From NCBI GenBank assembly GCA_964023275.1, contig OZ029914.1, forward strand, positions 10,237,561-10,301,560: a DNA stretch of 64,000 nt. The letters are read 5' to 3'. Shown piece by piece: positions 5,221 through 64,000 of this stretch. The translations under genes and the position numbers were made by a program. A model generated the notes under the pieces. That model worked only from the letters and a program-made list of their open reading frames with translations. It was not told the origin of the DNA and did not search any database. Source of the stretch: Norana najaformis (lineage: Eukaryota; Annelida; Clitellata; Crassiclitellata; Hormogastridae). How positions within the stretch are numbered: the stretch's first letter is position 1; each line of letters begins with the position of its first letter.

Positions 5221-5515
5221 CAGTAAAGTAAAGTAAAGTGTCTCATATTCCACAAGTGAGACGTAGGAGAGTCGCTCATTTCCTTTTCCTTAGGCCCTTG
5301 AACCGGCAATGGATGAATCCCAAGGTCCTGGACACGGCACCAGTGCATCACAGGACTTGCCGTTTACTTCCCAGCTTAAGCCGGTACCAAATTATACTGC
5401 TTGGGGACAGAGGTGAGCAAACAACTTGCCCAGGGTCGTTACACGCAGTCGAACCCGCAACCCTATCATCGTTGACCAAGCACGTTACCGATGGACCACC
5501 GTGCCGGACAGGGAA
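5221..5515 (-). repeat. tRNA-derived SINE, family A, minus orientation
   Basis: A nearly complete copy read on the minus strand. It has the head GGTGGTCCATCGGTAACG, a B-box GGGTTCGACTGCG, the body GGGCAAGTTGTTTGC, CAAGCAGTATAATTTGG, CTTAAGCTGGGAAGTAAACG and GTGTCCAGGACCTTGGGAT, and a (ACTTT)n tail (the AGTAAAGTAAAG at its + strand start). Other copies are at 6310, 18811, 29797, 35593, 36121 and 52815. Confidence 0.85.
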
Positions 5516-6309
5516 GCCAGAAATCAGGCTATGATGGGTAAACAAGTTAAAACAGACGAGTCTTAAATTTTAGACTTGAACGATATCAAAGAACTGAGGT
5601 TTTGCAGGCTATTTCATGGTATCTTCCATTATACACTTCTGTTATCGAAATGGAAGCGTCATCTTCCTCTTACTACTTTCCTCTCTCCTCCAGAATGTCC
5701 TCCTCATCTTCATCCTCCTCCTTCTTGTCATTCTCCTCCCCTCCTTTTTTGTACGCGTTGCAAGCTTGGACATATTCTCGCTGAAGTGTTCGGTCGGTCA
5801 GTGCAGACGACCTTCATGCGTCTGCGAACTTCTGCATAAGAGTACATGGACCAGATACGCCTAGCGTTGTGAGTGTTCAGATGCCTGATGTTTTCATATA
5901 AAGCCACAGCTGAAGCAGGTTTCTGGTACAAGTGCAATAACTGTCAGAGAAACATACGTCTATGCGCCTTCTAACAACTTAAGTGTCTGGCATCTGCGTA
6001 AACTTGTCTGATTTATTGGGAAAGACGTAACTAGACGCTGGTATGGCGAAGAAGGATAATTAACAGGTGAGTCTTGGTTCTTCTATTACATCATACTCTA
6101 GATACGGAGTAGTGTTGGCTGATGCGGCATGTACGGCAACTGAGAGGCTAATGCGTCGGCTCTTTTCATCTGCAACCTGGGTTCGAATCCTTGGGCTTTC
6201 CTGTGAAGTCAACATAGATCGCATTGTCTAACTGTGCACAGCCTCTGAGGCGATCGTCTTTGATCTGAATGCCTTCTTAAATCCAGTACAAAGAATATAG
6301 GGAAACATC
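5516..6309. other. no gene recognised
   Basis: A TCC/CTC-rich patch at 5660-5750 opens several overlapping short frames through low complexity. Nothing else can be supported. Confidence 0.5.
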
Positions 6310-6590
6310 GCCGGCAAGGTGGTCTATGGGTAACGTGTTTGGTTAATGATAATGCGGGATCGGGTTCGATCCCGTGTAACTACCATGGGCAAATTATTTG
6401 CGCACACCGTGCCTCTGTCACCAAGCAGTGTAATTTACCACCGGCGTAAGCTTGGAAGTAAACTGTAAGTCCTTTGATGCACTGGCCCCGTGTCCAGGAC
6501 CTTGGGATTCGCCGACTGCTGTCTGAAGGGCCTAAAGAAAAGGAGATGAGCGCCTTCCCTACGTCTCACTTGTGGGATATGGGATAATCT
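6310..6590 (+). repeat. tRNA-derived SINE, family A, plus orientation
   Basis: Head GGTGGTCTATGGGTAACG, B-box GGGTTCGATCCCG at about 6363, then the CACCGTGCCTCTGTCACCAA, GGAAGTAAACTG, GTGTCCAGGACCTTGGGATT and CTCACTTGTGGGATATGG segments typical of the family. This is the clearest sense copy. It lacks a proper anticodon stem and is not a tRNA gene. Confidence 0.85.
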
Positions 6591-6795
6591 TACTAACATC
6601 GCCGAGTACCATTCAGTGATTTTCAGTGCACGCAGCATTTGACCAAAAGCTATCCCGTCAGCCTTGCAGTACCGGATCTGGGCTTATATACTGTTGCACT
6701 TAAGATTGCTATTTTGTTATGGAGTTATGTACTCCCACCGAGCTACTGATTGAAGGCTTCTGTTGATTGATTCATCAACTGAAAGATACAAGTTT

Positions 6796-7545: not shown

Positions 7546-8390
7546 CTTTTTTCAGTAACTGTTACAGAATATTTGTTAAGCCCTCTTATTAAGTAACTAA
7601 GTAATCTTTAATAGCATAAGACTAACGTCATTGAGGCGCTCTGTACGTGGCTGACATTGAGATGGAAAATGTATTGCCTGTTGATTAAAGATTCCTTGCC
7701 AGAGGGTAACAGGTGTGTCGGCTCTTATTCATTGTGAATTAGGAATATGTATGAATTACAAAAATTTATATGCCTTATAGGTAACATATTCTTCACCATA
7801 CACTTCTTATTCCAGCCACGTAAGTCTGCCGAGTTACTATGCATACAGTTAATCGTATGTGGATATAAATGTGTTTATGCAAGAATTGTTTGTGTATATA
7901 TTTATTATTCATAAACATAAATGGTACATATTATGTGCAAATTCAATCTAATCTAATGAGCATGATATATGATGTCGTTTTATCATGGGTCATTCATTAC
8001 GAATCGAAGTCCACAATAATCGCATCGAATGATAGTCAAGACAAATCGTGGAAAACTGTCAGGTTGCTCCTGCACATTTTCAGAGATGGAGACAGTTACA
8101 GAAGCAGTGATAGTTACAGAGGCAAACACAGAGATATTTGCAGAAACAGAGACAAATACAGATGCAGATTGCCCTGAGGGGATGCTAAGCACGAACAGAC
8201 TAGAGTAAGCGGACTATAAAGATGGCGTTTTGGGTCTAAAATGGAGTTTCTGTCATAAGCTTCTAACTTGTCGTAAGACATTGCACAGATCGCTGGAAGT
8301 AAAGGGAAACTGAAAACAGTAAGTAGGCGTCCAAAGACTACGAAATGACTACAGTTCCACTTGAAGTAATCATCAAATTTGATGCATTGT
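7546..8390. other. no gene recognised
   Basis: Short overlapping frames around 7869-8192 on both strands cover an imperfect ACAG-rich repeat (8090-8165) and lack coding character. Confidence 0.5.
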
Positions 8391-8392
8391 GA

Positions 8393-8430
8393 ATTATGAT
8401 AACGGCGCTATAGAAGTCATACGATTGGCG
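8393..8430 (+). repeat. LINE 3'-tail repeat (ATAACGGCGCTATAGAAGT family)
   Basis: GCATTGTGAATTATGATAACG followed by GCGCTATAGAAGTCAT matches the dispersed tail. Degenerate shorter copies occur at 9987-10012 and 12328-12366. Confidence 0.55.
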
Positions 8431-8576
8431 CAATTGAGACCAGTTTCACGTGAATTATATCAATAATGAATAGGTCCTATATAAGCCAAAAATTCTTGTG
8501 TAAGCATAGATATATACATAGATCAGTATTTAAATGTGTACGTGATAGTTAGAAAGGCTTGAAAGGCTACAATAAG

Positions 8577-8749: not shown

Positions 8750-11355
8750 AATATTTGTGTATAACTGGGCCAATATAATTTTCACAAACATCCAGAGGCT
8801 CCGGACAGTGACACGCTGATGATATGACGATTATGACAACATTATGATGATAACGACGATAAAGAGGACTAAGATAATGACAATGATGATAATAATGTTA
8901 TGATGATGACGCACAAACAGACACGCACACGCACAAACAACCGCACACAGGCGCACACAGACACACACACATACAGGCGCAGACGCAAAGACCCGAAAGA
9001 ATTGGTCGTTCTGTTAAATTCCTCCTAAAATATCGTTGCTGTAACAAGTGGAAAGTTCAAGATTAATTTGGAGCTTTTCTAATATATATATAGATGTATA
9101 TATACATATAGATATACATATATATATATATGTATTCCCTTCTAATATATGAAGGGGATGCATATTCTAATACGCATCCCCTTCCCTACAGATAGGCAGG
9201 AAAATGGCGGCTGTTGCAATTTTCGTAGAGCTCCTCTTCATGCACTGTTTCTTGTGCGTGTAATATGGACGTTAATCTGGCTGTCATTCGGTTCAATGCT
9301 TCCGATTTCACAGGCGTCAAACCCCTGCATCGTATAGTGACTGAGTCAGTCTGGTTTAATTTGAAGCTCAGTTGCATCAGCAAACAGTTGACACGACTAC
9401 TGCAAGAGATGCATTCTTCAGTTGCCCAACAGGCAGAAAGGGATGTATGTACGTGTGTATGTTTGTGTGGACGTTTGTAGATGTGTTTGTCTGTATGCAT
9501 ATTTGATTGTTTGTTTGCTTGCTTGTTTCTCGATCATATAGCATGATAACGATGGTGGCGGTGAGTGAACAATAGGTTCTCTCTCTTTGTTCATCTGGTT
9601 CTCACCCTCTCTGCATCTGCCCTGGATCTTAATAGTCAGTCTCCATGTAGCATACACACGTGATTATAACTACTACGTCTTCTGCACAGTAGGTGTAGAA
9701 AAGCAATCCCACGAGAGGACATCATGGCTATTAAGCGTTGACAACTTCCCTCACGTAATGTGCGTCATTTATATTTTAAAAATAAATCGCCAGTATTATG
9801 TAATATGTATGCAAATATACGACTCGTGTATATACATTGCATGTCGGCATAAAAACACACCATATAATTATTATATTTACCGGGCTAAGCCATATACTAA
9901 CTCGTAGGATTTCTTCTGGACCTTTCTATAATAGATTACAATTGGGGGCTACGCAAAACAAACACCAATAATTGCCTTTTGTGCAGATAACGGCGCCATA
10001 GAAGTCATTGCATCTCTGGAAACAACATGTACTCTGTAGGACAGATGGTTGACCAAGGTTGGACCGTCGATATTTTATGTTTGGAAGACAAAGAATGTCA
10101 ACGCCTAAGGTTCATAGTGGCAAATGAGAAGATAACCAACTGTCTTAGAGCACACTAAGATTTTACACTTCCCATCTTTGTTGTGTTACTGGCATGTGTT
10201 ATAGTCAAAGGCGCCACCTACCGGAAGGTATTAAAAAGGTTAGGATCAGATGATAGAGCCACGTTCGTGGGGCCCTTTAAAATAAGACCATCTTGCTGAT
10301 TGGGTCCACAACTTTGTCGACTGCAGCGCCACCATGCGATTGGGCTTTTATGAGGTAAGGATACTAAGATGAACTGTCATTTCTTAGAATACTCTCAGAT
10401 CTTTGCTATAACTATAATCTTACTAACGAGGATAGGCTTCACCATTTTGACCTCTAATGTACTAGAATAGACCTAATTTATAGATACACTGAAAACTCAC
10501 AAAAATCACTTACACACAGTGGTTGTATTGCTCATCCAGATATCATTATATCCAATTTTTGGCGAATCTACAACCTAATCCTAACAGGAGAATCTATAAC
10601 CGATATGCGCTATTCGGATTAAATATTAAATGCGTGAATTACGATGCACAAAGTCGATTACTACAAGCAACACAAATCTACTACAAAGCGTTAGGTAATA
10701 TGTTACAAAAACCAGGCTTAGATGAAAATCTCAAATGTGATTATATACAAAAGCGCATAACAACAAAACAATTTTGGCCGATGTTCCTTTTAAGTGGCGG
10801 ATCTTCTGCTGTAGGTGGCAGATCTCACAGTTTTGGGTGGTGCATATCAAATCAGATATACCGGATCAGCACCTCTGATTTGATTGAATTTAACTACTGT
10901 TAAATTCAATTTAGACTGAATTGAAAAAAAGATGAAGTTAACTACTGTTAGTACCACAGTACATATAATTTTGTCTTTTGCATGTCTGTGTCAATCTAGT
11001 CTGTGTGTCGGCAAAAATTTCGCCAATTTTCTTTCAATCTGTATCTCCTTTTCATGCCCAGTATCCACGTGGAAGTCATATTGTTACTCTGTATTTCTAT
11101 CCATCCTTCATTATATAGTTTTTGGTCTATTACTACATGTGTATGGACTTGTAATTTATTAATTTTAACACTTTGTCATAAATGTGGTATTGCTCTGTTT
11201 GTGTTTCTATGTTGCAACATAGAATATCGTCTGTACCAATCTAGTTTGTATGTCTGTCTAAATTTGTATGTTGCAACATAGAATTGATCATGCATATGTC
11301 TGTCAATTTTGCTTCATTTTCTGTTTCAGAATGTTCTTTCTTTGTCGTGAATAAA
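8750..11355. other. no gene recognised; microsatellites
   Basis: Contains ATG-rich and CA-rich simple repeats (8810-8990), a (TA)n tract (9075-9135), and a 381-bp open frame at 10523-10903 (+). That frame has no recognisable domain and no supporting splice or poly(A) context. No family could be named for any open frame here. Confidence 0.45.
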
Positions 11356-18810: not shown

Positions 18811-19100
18811 AGTAAAGTATTCCATATCCCACAAGTTAGACGTATACGGGAGGCGCTCATCTCCTTTTCTTTTTCGGCCCTTCAGTTGGCAATTGACGAA
18901 TCCCAAGGTCCTGAAAACGGCGCCAGTGCATCGCAGGACTTGTCGTTTACTTCCCAGCTTACGCCGGTACCAAATTATACTGCTTTGTGACAGATGCGCG
19001 GTGTGCACAAACAACTTGCTCAGGGTCGTTACACGAAGTCGAACGCGCAACCGCATGATCATTGAGCAAACGCGTTACCAATAGACCACCGTTCCGCACA
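18811..19100 (-). repeat. tRNA-derived SINE, family A, minus orientation
   Basis: A full-length copy. It starts on the + strand with the reverse complement of the tail (AAGTAAAGTATTCCATATCC) and ends with the reverse complement of the tRNA-like head (AACGCGTTACCAATAGACCACC). Confidence 0.85.
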
Positions 19101-25755: not shown

Positions 25756-26870
25756 ATGGTTTCCGTTGCTGCGTGGCTCCCGTTCGTTCGGGCCGCAGCG
25801 ATCGGCTGGATCCCCATCGGACAGAATCCAGTTCCACCCATTCCTTCAGTGGCAAAGCAGAGAACCAGCGTCGATCGGAAGCTGCGCATCAACGTCAGCG
25901 GACAGATTTTCGAGACGTGGCGACACACGCTGGAAAAATACCCGGATACTCTGCTCGGCTCCAACGAAAAGGACTTCTTCTTCGACGACGAATCCGATGA
26001 ATACTTCTTCGACCGTGATCCAGACATCTTCCGACATGTTCTCAGCTACTACCGGTCGGGCCAGATGCACTATCCGCGCGACGAGTGTATCTCGGCCTTC
26101 GATGACGAACTCGCCTTCTTCGGGATATCCCAGGACATCATCGGCGACTGCTGCCAGGAGGAATACCGAGACCGGAAACGCGAGAACCTCGAGCGACTGG
26201 CCGACGACCAGCAGGACACGGAAGAGATCGAGGTCCACCCGACGACGAATGTTCGAGAAAAGATGTGGCGCGCCTTCGAGAGCCCTCAAACAAGCACCCC
26301 TGCCCTCGTCTTCTACTACGTCACGGGGTTTTTCATAGCCGTCTCGGTCCTGGCCAATGTAGTCGAGACGGTACCGTGCGGATCGGCCCCGCCAGGGTCA
26401 GACCGCGTTCCAAACTGCGGCGAGCGCTTCGAGCCCGAGCTATTCTGCCTGGATACGGCGTGTGTCATGATCTTCACGACCGAATACCTGTTGCGACTGT
26501 ACGCGGCCCCCATGCGATGCAAACACATCCGGAGCGTGATGAGCGTCATCGACATCGTCGCTATTCTACCCTACTACATCGGTCTCTGCATCCCCGACAA
26601 TAAGGACGTCAGTGGGGCGTTCGTTACCCTGAGGGTCTTCCGTGTGTTCCGTATCTTCAAGTTCTCGCGGCACTCGCAGGGGCTGAGGATCCTTGGCTAC
26701 ACGCTCAAGAGCTGCGCCTCTGAGCTCGGCTTTCTCCTCTTCTCGCTCAGCATGGCCATTATTATCTTCGCCACGATTATGTACTACGCCGAAAAAAACG
26801 TTCCGGATACGACCTTCACCAGCATTCCGGAAGCCTTCTGGTACACGATCGTCACCATGACAACGCTCGG
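25756..26870 (+). CDS. Shal: Kv4 (Shal) potassium channel, coding exon 1: N-terminus, T1, S1 to pore
   Basis: Encodes residues 1-371 plus two bases of codon 372 of a Kv4-class A-type potassium channel of the plasma membrane. The N-terminus [18 protein letters not shown] is the conserved Kv4 segment that binds KChIP-type auxiliary subunits. The T1 tetramerisation domain covers about 41-145 and holds the Kv2-4 zinc motif HX5CX20CC (H105, C111, C132, C133). S1 is about 184-204, S2 228-250, S3 261-278. S4 (286-310) has the gating charges R293, R296, R299, K302 and R305. S5 is about 321-345 and the pore helix 356-369. The exon ends inside the selectivity filter (TMTTLG) at a GTAAGC donor, phase 2, with the filter completed by exon 2. 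Codon use is GC-rich compared with the flanks. Identity is certain; absence of frameshifts suggests an active gene. Confidence 0.98.
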
Positions 26871-29796: not shown

Positions 29797-30085
29797 TGTG
29801 CGGCACGGTAGTCTATAGGTAAAGTGTTTGGTCAGTGATCATGTAGTTGCGGGTTCGACTCCGTTTAACAAACCTGGGCAAGTTGCTCGCGCACACCGTG
29901 CATCTGTCACCAAGCAGTATGATTTGGTGCCTGCATAAGCTGGGAAGTAAACAGCAACTCCTGCAATTCGCCTACCAGTGTCCAGGACCTTGAGATTCGT
30001 CCATTGCCAGCTCAAGAGCCTAAAGAGAAGAAAATGAGCGCCTTCCCTACGTCTCACTTGCGGGGTACAGGATACTTTACTTTAC
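29797..30085 (+). repeat. tRNA-derived SINE, family A, plus orientation
   Basis: Head GGCACGGTAGTCTATAGGTAA, B-box GGGTTCGACTCCG, CACCGTGCATCTGTCACCAA, GTGTCCAGGACCTTGAGATT, tail (ACTTT)n at 30068-30086. An (ATT)n run abuts its 5' end. Confidence 0.85.
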
Positions 30086-30089
30086 TTTG

Positions 30090-35592: not shown

Positions 35593-35850
35593 GTAAAGTA
35601 AAGTATTCCATATCCCACAAGTGAGACGATGGGGATGCGCTCATTCCTTTTCTTAGGCCCTTGAGTCGGCAATGTACACGGGGCCAGTGCATCGCAGAAC
35701 TTGCCGTTTACTTCCCAATTTACCCCGGTATCAAAATATGCTGCTTGGTGACAGAGGCAAGGTTTACGCAAACAACTTGTCCAGTGTCGTTACAAGGGGT
35801 CGAACCCCCAATCGCGCGATTATTGACCAAACGACTATGCCGTAGATCAA
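35593..35850 (-). repeat. tRNA-derived SINE, family A, minus orientation
   Basis: Starts with the reverse-complement tail (GTAAAGTAAAGTATTCCATA) and ends with the reverse-complement B-box (GGGGTCGAACCCC) and head; about 25 bp are missing in the middle (GGCAATG..ACACGG). Confidence 0.8.
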
Positions 35851-53096: not shown

Positions 53097-53259
53097 TTAT
53101 GGTGACATGGTTCCGAGCACAGTGAGTGGTAAGATCGTCGGTGGTGTATGTTCGCTGAGTGGAGTCCTTGTAATCGCTCTTCCAGTTCCCGTTATCGTCT
53201 CCAACTTCAGCCGAATCTACCATCAAAACCAACGATCCGACAAACGAAAAGCTCAGAAG
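53097..53259 (+). CDS. Shal: Kv4 (Shal) coding exon 2: selectivity filter end and S6
   Basis: The first base completes the glycine codon begun in exon 1, giving TMTTLGYGDMVP across the junction. The exon then encodes residues 373-426. S6 is [19 protein letters not shown], with the PVP gate hinge at 401-403, followed by the conserved post-S6 segment [20 protein letters not shown]. The acceptor is TTTGTTTAG and the donor AAG/GTAGAC, leaving phase 0. The junction inside the filter matches the intron position known for Kv4 genes. Continuity with exon 1 is exact and there is no sign of decay. Confidence 0.98.
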
Positions 53260-59267: not shown

Positions 59268-59456
59268 AAAGCTAGATTATCTCGCATTCAGATGGCGAAG
59301 ACTTCGGCTGTGAAGGCCTTCATTAACACGAAGAGGAAGACGCAGCAGATGCTAATGGCACTTCAGACGGGAAATGAGACAGACGTTGAACTTAAGAACG
59401 AAGATCTATTCCAGCTTCAACACCATCACATGCTCACCTGTCTAGAACGAACTACG
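59268..59456 (+). CDS. Shal: Kv4 (Shal) coding exon 3: proximal C-terminus
   Basis: Encodes 63 residues (427-489) starting KARLSRIQMAKTSAVKAF and ending LQHHHMLTCLERTT. Both ends are Kv4 signatures: KARLxRIxxAK directly follows the RAQK of exon 2, and xLQHHHLLxCLEKTT is the conserved segment that in vertebrate Kv4.2 holds the dileucine dendritic-targeting motif. Here the first leucine is methionine. The acceptor is TTTCTGTAG at 59259-59267 and the donor ACG/GTCAGT, phase 0. A nearer AG at 59290-59291 would drop KARLSRIQ and keep frame, so it is a possible alternative acceptor. Confidence 0.95.
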
Positions 59457-60029
59457 GTCAGTGTCTGAGTGTCTCATTTACTACCACATACTTTATTATA
59501 TTCTCACCTGTCTTTAATTAACTATAAGGTGTTTATGGCTCTAATCTATTGCCAAATGCTCATCTGTCTTCAGCGAATTAACGCCAGTTCTACAGTATGA
59601 TTTTTCAGCAAAATGTTCACCTGTCTCGAAATGAACTAAAGTCATTGCTAAAGCTTCTAATTAATTATTGTGTAGGTCTACCAAATGCTTACCTGCCTAG
59701 AATATAGCATAATAACTGTACAGGTATAGCGCCTTTTTCTGCTGCGGCCGTAATACGGCGCTCTATAATTGTCTTTTTATTCATATTAATATAATTATAA
59801 TTATAATAATACTTATAATAATAATTATTATCAGTATTAGTATTGTTAACGATTTTTAAAGTGATTTATGAGATTTATGATTGTGCCATAACCACGGTTA
59901 ATGCTAAAGTCTATCTCCGAAAAATGGCTAACGCATTGTCAGACCGTTGCATAATTTCCCACATTAACTTCAAATCCTCGATGTGTTCACAGTTTTCACT
60001 GAAACATTAAAATATTCAAAGAACAGTCT

Positions 60030-60090: not shown

Positions 60091-60118
60091 AAGTCAAAAT
60101 TGCAACCCAGCAGTACCT

Positions 60119-60593
60119 TAAAAAATATTTTTAGCCAAAGTAATCAAAATGTTTTTTGTTGCGGCATAATATTGCAAGGCCTGTTAGACCATAGAGTACA
60201 GGAGATGTGTACCTGTCTGCTTTTTGGACAGCATTTGCGGAAGCAAGGAGGGACTCTTCTTCATATTCTCTCAGTGGCGGATCTGCATGTTGGGTTTCTT
60301 TGTTTCTGTTTAGGATCGGGAGTTCGTGGATGTTGAATTTCCGGCTGATGTTGCAGAGAAGACGATCGATGTCCCTCTTCTGAAGACCGTAACAACAGAC
60401 AGCTGCAGCCATTCAGCAGCCGCTTCGCATCCCACTCTATCGAAGACCACGAACACGATCTGTCCCTGCCTCCGCAAATGCTGTCCCAAAAGCAGCCAGG
60501 TATACATCTCCTGTACTCTATACTCCAACAGGCCTCGCAATATTATGCCACAACAAAAAACACTTTGATTACTGTGGCTAAAAATATCTTTTT
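60119..60593. repeat. long inverted repeat around Kv4 exon 4 donor
   Basis: The left arm (60119-60250, in intron 3) is the reverse complement of the right arm (60465-60593), with about 12 differences over 123 aligned bases. The right arm spans the last 35 bases of exon 4, its 5' splice site and about 93 bases of intron 4. The 214-bp loop carries the exon 4 acceptor and most of the exon. Shared blocks include CATAATATTGC, TAGAGTACAGGAGATGT and ACAGCATTTGCGGA. Confidence 0.9.
60314..60499 (+). CDS. Shal: Kv4 (Shal) coding exon 4: middle C-terminus
   Basis: Encodes 62 residues (490-551), starting DREFVDVEFPADVAEK and ending with the Cys/Lys-rich CPCLRKCCPKSSQ. Kv4 proteins have [ND]REFV right after CLEKTT and a CC(S/G)RR-like cluster at the matching place, so identity and frame are secure. 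The acceptor is TTTCTGTTTAG and the donor CAG/GTATAC, phase 0 on both sides. The middle part is Ser/Thr/His-rich and poorly conserved, as in the family. The exon's 3' end and donor lie in the right arm of the long inverted repeat. Confidence 0.95.
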
Positions 60594-63500
60594 TATTTCA
60601 TCGCGTATCAAAATAAGTTGTACAAAAATATATTAGGTGATTTCAATTCTACAAATTATAGGTTCGTAACAAAACCAGGAGAAAGTACATCTTTACCATT
60701 CTTTTTGCATCAAACAGCAAAATACAATATGTTGCATTAATTTCTTTGCAGCCTGTTGGGGGGGGGTTAGTGGACAAAGCTCCCTTGAATTGACGCCAAA
60801 AATAACGGATGGCATAAAATTGCAGTCATACTTGTTTATACTTAAGGCCTAAATTATAGCCATAAAAGAAAGTTGACTGAGGGGCTTTCTTCACTAGCCA
60901 TGACTTTCCTTTCCATCTCTAAACGAAGGAAAGCAAGGCGTTCGAAAACTGTATTTCTTGTCGCATCCTTTTATCACCCCTTAGCAAAACAAGGCAAAAT
61001 ATATACATATACACGTACGTACTAGCATACAGAGACTTACACTGTATATGCTGCTAAATAGAAGGATGTGACGGTTGGACCACTGTTTCCGTTAGCCAAA
61101 GATTGATTTTCATAAATGTCAGGCATGGATTATTACTGAAGTAGAATCATGTTATCATATTGATTGAAAGTGAAACAAGAACAATCGGAAAGTTGTCGAT
61201 TGAACACCTGTTTTATTTCCTACCGAAGTTTGCCGATGGTCGACGATTTGTTCCGATGCGATGATGCATTTGTCAGGGTTGCATTGTGATGCAAATGTCA
61301 ATGCGTCCTTTAATAAGGATATTACGAAGGACATCAGCAGGTCACCTGTTAACTGGAATGCGTAGACATATAACACTTCAAATAGGATGGATCGGTGGAT
61401 GGATGGATGGATGGGTGGGTGGGTGGATGGATAGATGGGATGGATTAGATGCATTGATGGATGATTAGATGCATTGATGGATGATTAGATGGACTCGGTA
61501 CGGCATTATTCTGCATTTCTGTAATCATAGTATTCTTGATATTCTCTACTTCAACTTGCTTGCACCACGGAAGTTTGAAGCCATGCAATAGCGATATCCC
61601 AGGCAGCCAGGGTCCGTGGGTCCATATCGGGCTAGCTTAGTGCCACTGGTGACAGCTGTTGGCCATATAGCCTACATATGGGCCTAAATGTTGAACCAAC
61701 GATTGGAATGTGAGGGACATAGACCATTTGTCTCATTCTCTCAACCTAAGCATGACTAACCGCAACAGCTCCTCTGTTCACATATAATTACATAGCGCCA
61801 TAACACGCCAGCAGCTAATTCGGATAGAGTGCCTAGAGAATCAGTCTCAACACGCAATTCGATGCATTGCCGGACAATGGATGGACCTAATCGAGAACTG
61901 TTCCATATAGGATGACCGTTAAGCACAGCGAGTGTTCTACCCTATATCGGTCTATTTGTCTGTCTGGTTGGATCGCTGTGTGCTTCTGGTGTCTGGGTGA
62001 CATTTGACCGAATGCTTGAGCTGAAAACGGAGCGCACTTTCTCTCGGGACGGACAGTAAATCGGCATATAAGGCTCCTTGTGAGAGCGAATGACCAGGAC
62101 CATCGCCGTTTCCACTGCTCTCTCTAGTTAAGTCACCGTTGGGGACTCCAGTGTTTTAGTCGGTCTGTGAAAGTCGGTTATGTTAAATGCCATTTCGTCT
62201 CATTCCGGATCGATTATGTCCGTCCTTCCGTACGTTGTGGGACATATGTCAACAAGTGCCACCAACACGAAACAATAACGCAAAGGTCCTCCATGGAAAT
62301 TCAGCCGCACACGAATCGATGCAAAGACGGGCGGACGGTCGGAACATGGATAGAATGAGAGGAAGAATAAGCAATGGAAACCATGGGAAGCACATGACTC
62401 AAAGAATCGCGATGAACATGGAGTTAATAGGATCAATTGCAGAGTGAATGGACTCCTAAGATATCTCCCGCCCTCAAACGACCCGCAACAACAGCTAGAA
62501 GCATTTATAGTCAAGGCGTCTAGGCAAGTTGACCAAAATGATGCTCTTAATTAACGTGCTATGATATATATTTTGCCAATGATATAAGGTTATAATACTA
62601 TATATCTTTTGGGCCAAGATTGCAGCCCTATACCAACAACAGTCTTTTAAATGCCGCATTAGTTGGTTTGAAGGATATTTTAAATGAAGACAGATGCAGG
62701 CCATTAAAATAACTTCAAGTCAAATGGTCTTACTTAATTGAAACATAAGCAAATATTGCTTCACTGCTGAAAGTCTATCTATTTATTCGACTTATGTAAA
62801 GTTTTTATTTAAAAATTAATTTCCAGCAAATCTAACTGTATGTTTGAGCATAAATAATTTGTACTCTTTGAACAACTAAATCGGGAGTAAAAGGATTAAC
62901 TGGCTCAATAATAATACAAAATGGTAGGCTACATGTTAAAAGAAAACAATAGGCTTGATAGCAAATGTCAAGCCCATTGCACAGGTCGACGCATTTAATA
63001 AGACAATTATTTAATTTATGGCTTCACAGCATATCCCAGTTGTTTATTAACTTTCAACTCCGTGAAAAAAGAAGACTAACTTCCTTTAAAGACGTAAAAG
63101 AACTTTGGATGTTAAGAGATCGTTTACTGAGACTGCGTTTCATGCTGACATCACTAAGGTCCACGATACAATCACATGGTGCTCGGTAGGTAGTGTAGCA
63201 AGTGTCTTAATGGCCAAACGTTTTATGTATAGAAGCAGTTAAGGAATTCAACCTTCTGTGAATCCAAAATCTGTGAACTGAAAATTCTAAATAGGGTGAT
63301 TATACACAAAGATCGACGCCTACACAATGATCGGAATCTCCCATAGACACTCAAATAAACGCACGGTGCCATTTTAAATGTTTTGTTTGATTCTTCTTGG
63401 GTTGATTCGCTTCCAGCCTAACCCATTGGCCTATTTGATGCTATTTGGTGAAGAGATGTGCAGATAGACAGACAAACAGACACATATCTTGTTGATAGAA

Positions 63501-63765: not shown

Positions 63766-64000
63766 AAAAACGACTCGCGAAACGACCACAGTATGCAGAT
63801 CGAAAAGTCGCCTCAGCTGCGAAGCCACAGAACGATGGCCTGGCAGTCGGCTCCTCACACCTCCACCTCCATCACGAACGACACTCCGAAACAGTCTCGG
63901 TCGAGTCTAAACGCAATCATACACAACGATGGAACGAAAAACGACAGCCGAACATCGCTCGATAACAACACAGGCGTCGAATTCCACGGTCTCAACGACA
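63766..64000 (+). CDS. Shal: Kv4 (Shal) coding exon 5, partial: distal C-terminus
   Basis: After the acceptor TGTTTCCAACAG the phase-0 frame is open for 78 codons to the window edge (residues 552 to 629 and on). It begins KNDSRNDHSMQIEKSPQL and contains QSRSSLNAII, matching the SRSSLNAK segment of Kv4 C-termini, then a Ser/Thr/Asn-rich stretch. The reading frame is the one that has neither an ATG near its start nor a stop; the two overlapping alternative frames both end in stops. The terminal codon is outside the window. Confidence 0.9.

Follow-up and report, generated by a model that had tools for sequence, protein, structure and literature searches.

Does a hairpin in the pre-mRNA of a Kv4 channel gene hide the donor of its fourth exon and, if so, is this an accident that the gene tolerates, a regulatory device or a structure without consequence? 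The question is raised in the annelid Norana najaformis by a reverse-complement copy of the exon 4 3′ end in intron 3. The DNA analyzed, referred to as the window, is a stretch of 64,000 nucleotides (positions 10237561–10301560 of its contig) from a genome of 608 Mb in 17 contigs. An initial annotation made from its letters had proposed that the copy could regulate inclusion of exon 4, act as an ADAR substrate or equally be a neutral recent inverted duplication.

Results

Identity of the gene and frame of exon 4

Exon 1 matches the Pfam families PF11601 (Shal-type, 2.6e-12), PF02214 (BTB_2, 1.6e-27) and PF00520 (Ion_trans, 4.3e-34), and its best matches among solved structures are chains of KCND2 (Kv4.2; E = 1.4e-179). 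With a Shal N-terminus, a T1 domain and a Kv membrane core, the gene is by its encoded protein a Kv4/Shal channel, as the initial annotation had named it. The remaining exons are listed in Table 1; exon 5 was located by its RSSLN motif and was not found when human Kv4 C-termini were used as the query. Exon 4 alone gave no match in Pfam or among solved structures, and its Cys cluster, PCLRKCCPKSSQ, is encoded by the 37 exonic nucleotides of the right arm of the inverted repeat. The splice signals and the phase of exon 5 bear out the earlier claim that exon 4 could be skipped in frame: because its 186 nt are in phase 0 at both ends and exon 5 starts in phase 0, a junction between exons 3 and 5 would preserve the reading frame. 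Upstream of the Kv4 gene, at 198–1088, lies a 296-codon open frame with an NHL repeat match (6.7e-7).

Table 1. Features of the Kv4 locus, in window coordinates
Feature	Position	Strand	Description
Kv4 exon 1	25756..26870	+	Shal N-terminus, T1 and membrane domain up to the TTLG of the filter; edges from sequence
Kv4 exon 2	53097..53259	+	YGDMVP to a stretch of 12 residues; edges from sequence
Kv4 exon 3	59268..59456	+	189 nt, phase 0 at start and end; ends in the HHH..CLE.TT motif
Left arm	60120..60249	-	Lies in intron 3 and repeats, as reverse complement, the end of exon 4 with its donor and the first part of intron 4; most likely the derived copy
Loop	60250..60462	+	Acceptor of exon 4 and the 149 nt that follow it; mean unpaired probability of acceptor 0.52
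Kv4 exon 4	60314..60499	+	186 nt, phase 0/0; AG acceptor, CAG/GTATAC donor; homologous exon in paralogue L040
Right arm	60463..60592	+	The final 37 nt of exon 4 and, from the donor on, 93 nt of intron 4; most likely the ancestral arm
Exon 4 donor GTATAC	60500..60505	+	Inside the stem (predicted)
In-frame TGA	60566..60568	+	Reached on read-through into intron 4, 22 codons after exon 4
Candidate donor TAG/GTGATT	60637..60642	+	Outside the stem; the sole one above 1.5 bits in 60200–60900 (by human position frequencies)
Kv4 exon 5, terminal	63766..64059	+	63766..64000 in the window, 59 bases past its end; phase 0 start

Geometry and pairing of the inverted repeat

A repeat search of the window returned two arms of 130 nt each, 90% complementary and separated by 213 nt, close to the copy of about 123 bp and about 90% identity described initially at a distance of 214 bp. 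In the ungapped register, 117 positions form Watson-Crick pairs and one a G.U pair, leaving 12 mismatches, and the longest run free of mismatches is 25 nt (18 nt without the G.U pair). The local inverted alignment score of the arms is 195, compared with a maximum of 31 in 200 first-order Markov randomizations, so that their similarity is far beyond chance. RNA folding of 60100–60620, the segment put forward for this purpose with the initial annotation, gave −241.3 kcal/mol (z = −22), and none of 100 shuffles was equally stable. The predicted fold replaces the outermost mismatch by a 2-nt bulge at 60588–60589, and the outermost difference between the arms may be a small indel. Past the arm ends, inward or outward, no pairing above that of shuffles was found.

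Inverted local copies are a known type of assembly artifact, and a fold-back chimeric read could in principle have produced this one. The copy in such a read comes from one molecule, however, and 13 non-Watson-Crick positions in 130 are not expected of it; the host contig, moreover, is 51.8 Mb long. An artifact is accordingly held to be highly improbable.

Predicted effect of the stem on the exon 4 donor

Accessibility was calculated as the mean unpaired probability of donor positions −3 to +6 in a 901-nt context. For the exon 4 donor this probability is 0.001 (0.0011) in the presence of the left arm, 0.50 when the arm is deleted and, when the arm is shuffled, 0.485 on average (12 shuffles, range 0.297–0.505), while the acceptor region remains open (0.52). 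At the level of predicted structure, the earlier proposal that the duplex covers the donor and loops out the acceptor thus holds. The hairpin resembles the splice-site-sequestering stems of the para/GluR-B kind in that a stable stem is predicted in silico to lie over a splice site at pairing spans of about 300 nt. The donors of exons 1–3, in their own contexts, have unpaired probabilities of 0.404, 0.116 and 0.295, respectively, that of exon 2 being fairly closed without any arm.

In folds of the growing transcript the donor is closed early, at 0.011 when the RNA ends at 60505 and at 0.001 when it ends at 60515, because the exonic 37 nt of the right arm are transcribed first. The result depends on how far apart the pairing partners may lie, in a thermodynamic calculation that leaves out proteins and kinetics: with the maximum span set to 50, 150 or 220 nt the donor has an unpaired probability of 0.40, 0.41 or 0.49, about the same as without the arm, and it is closed at 300 nt.

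The donor itself scores 1.2 bits, against 5.1, 1.3 and 2.15 bits for exons 1–3 (human frequencies), and its pairing energy with the U1 5′ end is −7.2 kcal/mol, against −10.3, −6.5 and −7.1 kcal/mol. As it nearly ties with exon 2 by score and is not the weakest by U1 energy, it is better described as modest than as exceptional. Read-through to the candidate donor at 60637 meets the TGA at 60566.

These values bear on the possibility that the duplication is silent, with U1, RNA-binding proteins and helicases loading before or despite the stem, exon 4 constitutive and, at most, scattered editing in the intron. The need for a folding span of about 300 nt to bury the donor fits this possibility. 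On the other hand, the predicted change in donor access is very large, pairing begins in the exon before the donor is transcribed, and the donor lies far below that of the paralogue described in the next section (1.2 versus 7.08 bits). Considered together with the comparisons below, a silent duplication is a serious contender to which we give clearly less than an even chance.

Origin of the left arm

When the 475 bases around the repeat were searched against the 608 Mb genome, the matches were its own place and its two arms; the search scores the best candidates only and skips very common words. Further copies of the arms were neither present in the window nor reported genome-wide for this query. 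A dispersed repeat, fold-back transposon or MITE was considered and rejected, the locus being apparently single by these searches and the arm carrying Kv4 coding sequence.

The genome contains six further Shal-like exon 1 copies (68–84% identity, one split in two pieces), after which the next-best matches reach 60% over a part of the exon and at most 42% over the whole. A search of a viral contig collection with exon 1 returned no relative. The seven Shal-like exon 1 loci of this genome (one in two pieces) exceed the number in the bilaterian ancestor, which according to PMC9989356 had one Shal; five cnidarian rows in a table of that paper have 5 to 13.

Fragments behind exon 3 were examined in five of the six paralogues (C12 was left out). 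In one of them, L040, an exon homologous to exon 4 was recognized by eye, after which its splice signals and phase were checked: it is 171 nt long and in phase 0, starts with GREF (DREF in the present gene), has its Cys cluster at the end and is followed by the donor AAG/GTAAGA, which scores 7.08 bits and has an unpaired probability of 0.51. A protein search of the genome with exon 4 returned only exon 4 itself, and a scan of the other four fragments for the pattern of its start gave none. Neither arm has a match better than E = 0.22 in the five fragments, a result that agrees with a silent duplication, and the L040 fragment contains no inverted repeat. In the L036 fragment there are three inverted pairs (68–94 nt, 72–79%), unrelated to the arms.

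Because L040 has an exon 4 homologue with an open, strong donor and no arm, the exonic side is read as the original and the left arm as the copy. The absence of the arm beside a recognized exon 4 comes from this one paralogue, and the comparison makes it most likely that the intronic arm is derived. The paralogues are far older than the 10% divergence of the arms and are uninformative on whether the arm is shared with related species. A divergence of 10% exceeds ordinary allelic variation, so the arm is probably fixed; for the same reason the word “recent” in the initial proposal of a neutral recent inverted duplication requires qualification.

Differences between the arms and inverted repeats elsewhere

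Nine of the 13 non-Watson-Crick positions are transitions, giving eight A.C mismatches and the one G.U pair. The A lies in the left arm in six of the 12 mismatches (five if the outermost is an indel), as had been noticed initially, and in the right arm in two of the 12. Without selection, A.C and G.U would be expected in about equal numbers, and selection for pairing favors G.U; the observed split of 8:1 is the opposite (one-sided sign probability 0.0195; 7:1 and 0.035 when the outermost one is counted as an indel). The differences therefore give no support to selection for pairing, with numbers that are small and to which a mutational strand bias could contribute. This split, lacking the excess of G.U that pairing selection would leave, speaks for a duplication of no consequence. 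The near lack of indels, at most one in 130 nt, points weakly towards selection.

Local inverted repeats were also surveyed beyond the window, in the 40 kb downstream and at 20 fixed places of 10 kb each on contigs C1–C7, 240 kb in all. Six loci in these 240 kb have inverted arms of 60 nt or more lying no further than 1 kb apart, a frequency that again suits a silent duplication; two of them reach 85% identity and none has a spacing below 300 nt. The window itself contains four other such pairs, none at 85%, one of which is only 89 nt apart at 76%. The exon 4 pair is thus unusually tight and clean, yet inverted repeats as such are not rare here and, given the size of the genome, chance alone would probably place some of them over a donor.

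Two other arrangements were seen near the gene. Downstream of it, L006 has an inverted pair at 7911–8482 and 9414–9985 (572 nt, 97.7%, 931 nt apart) that is probably a mobile element. Members of a dispersed repeat family (5232–6594, 18867–19100, 29797–30088 and 35673–35849; 75–84% identity) lie on both sides of exon 1, upstream of it and within intron 1, in either orientation; two of them are separated by 0.8 kb.

Direct copies of the exon 3 end

At the start of intron 3, the 3′ end of exon 3 (59429–59454) recurs four times in direct orientation and in decayed form, at 59499, 59555, 59612 and 59684; each copy has 26 bases, of which 17–20 match. Copies with at least 17 of 26 matches number four, against 0.005 in shuffles; the rest of the forward strand has none and the reverse strand of the window has one. 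At least one of the copies seems, by eye, to extend past the donor. None was found in the five paralogue fragments (best 15/26). The repeated core, ATGCTCACCTGTCT (59429–59443 and its copies), resembles the 5′ end of U1 snRNA, that is, the complement of a donor; the likeness is probably due to the coding motif MLTCL, and the core might attract or mimic donor pairing. The gene thus contains exon 3′ ends repeated in direct orientation (exon 3) as well as inverted (exon 4).

ADAR-type genes and possible fates of the stem

The A_deamin domain is found at five places in the genome, with a dsRNA-binding motif (dsrm) just upstream of one, so the genome very likely encodes an ADAR. With a long predicted dsRNA in the transcript and ADAR-type genes present, the hairpin is a candidate ADAR substrate of the exon-complementary (ECS) type. 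The exonic part of the arm contains nine adenosines, all opposite U, and changing any one of seven of them to G would recode K, S or Q.

Such genes are among the points that invite the idea of a selected switch, in which the left arm is an exon-complementary sequence that sets inclusion of exon 4 by cell type, temperature or the level of helicase or ADAR and so provides two Kv4 C-termini. The phase 0/0 exon with its in-frame 3–5 junction, the low-scoring donor beneath a stem with z = −22, the presence of no more than one indel in 130 nt and the alternative 19-residue cassette described for human Kv4.3 (PMC5296356) are all in keeping with it, but the differences between the arms do not favor pairing and the arm is absent from the paralogue fragments examined, which leaves selection for this role an unlikely explanation. 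It is similarly doubtful that a single inverted duplication of the gene's own exon end created a built-in Kv4 splicing switch through which helicase, ADAR or temperature sets the level of the Cys-rich C-terminal segment.

The stem could instead promote back-splicing of the donor at 60500 to the acceptor at 60313, giving a 186-nt exon 4 circle favored by the flanking arms. Ninety-three nucleotides of the stem are purely intronic on both sides of exon 4, and exon looping by inverted repeats is described as accompanied by circularized exons (PMC11802352). As the required donor sits inside the stem and exon 4 is short, this outcome is very improbable. Even less probable is that Dicer cuts the stem into siRNAs that act on the Kv4 mRNA through the 37 exonic nt, in the manner of a young hairpin-RNA locus: endo-siRNAs are made from hairpin RNA loci of Drosophila (PMC10317233, PMC10292708) and the 130-nt stem includes 37 bp of coding sequence, but it is intronic and nuclear, and the mRNA could be targeted by those 37 bp only.

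Discussion

A course of events can be proposed from these results: two arms that pair, a donor predicted to be buried by them, a left arm read as the derived copy and an exon 4 in phase 0. By a local template switch or a comparable DNA event, intron 3 would have gained a reversed copy of the sequence that runs from the 3′ end of exon 4 across its donor into intron 4, and this copy would later have become fixed. During transcription the exonic 37 nt may find the left arm while the donor is still to be made, and the stem would zip over a donor of modest strength. Exon 4 would then be poorly recognized where the stem is not opened by ADAR editing or by an MLE/DHX9-type helicase, and part of the transcripts may lack exon 4, with the frame preserved, or be spliced at a different donor.

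Our leading, tentative explanation, to which we give somewhat under an even chance, is that the hairpin is the tolerated by-product of a chance duplication that became fixed, that it weakens recognition of exon 4 and that it may attract ADAR. That the hairpin is a by-product and is not kept by selection is held with the same reserve. Several considerations argue against this explanation: burial needs a folding span of about 300 nt; the stem is interrupted (longest run 25 nt), falling short of the precedent of perfect stems; the donor differs little by score from that of exon 2, which is itself fairly closed; and, if loss of exon 4 is costly, a strongly interfering hairpin should have been purged. 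Of the initial interpretation, the Kv4 assignment, the structure and its coordinates, the phase, the predicted burial of the donor and the placing of the acceptor in the loop stand; selection for pairing found no support.

If exon 4 is skipped through the stem, the locus is a natural experiment on the extent and speed of nascent RNA folding in the cell, with a single intronic arm acting on a single donor of an in-frame exon and with six related genes in the genome for comparison (five of them examined in part and armless). It would also illustrate how one mutational step can give an ion-channel gene a splicing switch or an editing substrate. If, instead, exon 4 is always included, a limit is set, namely that U1 is not stopped by a stem of 130 nt and 90% complementarity that closes a loop of 213 nt.

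Among the titles and opening lines of abstracts searched, mostly of open papers, none was found on this locus or on an inverted exon-end copy in Kv4. The systems nearest to it each differ from it in some respects. The position of the 19-residue cassette of Kv4.3 is presumably the junction equivalent to that between exons 3 and 4 here. The long and short variants of Kv4.3, as presented in PMC5296356, are likewise Kv4 forms that differ, through alternative splicing, in the cytosolic C-terminus, but there the cassette is added, whereas here the whole of exon 4 would be lost. Inverted Alu elements that loop out exons (PMC11802352) are also natural inverted repeats around an exon; Alus, however, are dispersed and occupy both flanking introns, whereas here one arm is the exon end itself and its copy is local and single. 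In the artificial inverted repeats of Solnick and of Solnick and Lee, placed around splice signals as the arms are here, splicing was affected in cells only above 50 nt of perfect complementarity, according to PMC2275289; those repeats were engineered, whereas the Kv4 stem is natural, longer overall and interrupted.

The closest parallels are stems thought to conceal splice sites. The GluR-B stem is short, imperfect and conserved. In GluR-B (GluA2) the editing stem may sequester the donor until resolved by DHX9, and editing competes with splicing (PMC5173168); the Kv4 stem may likewise cover a 5′ splice site, but it has 130 nt at 90% and its partner lies in the upstream intron. In the Drosophila para Na+ channel pre-mRNA, mutation of MLE leads to exon skipping and MLE is thought to open structures that conceal splice sites (PMC5173168). 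The likeness to para/MLE (napts) lies in an ion-channel pre-mRNA with a structure thought to hide splice sites; para has RNA evidence from mutants as well as editing, whereas the Kv4 case is built from sequence, with a stem derived from an inverted copy of an exon end. If the stem acts at all, this locus joins the known splice-site-hiding stems and, should it prove a switch, would be a natural hairpin of the para type that arose in one step, with its paralogues as controls.
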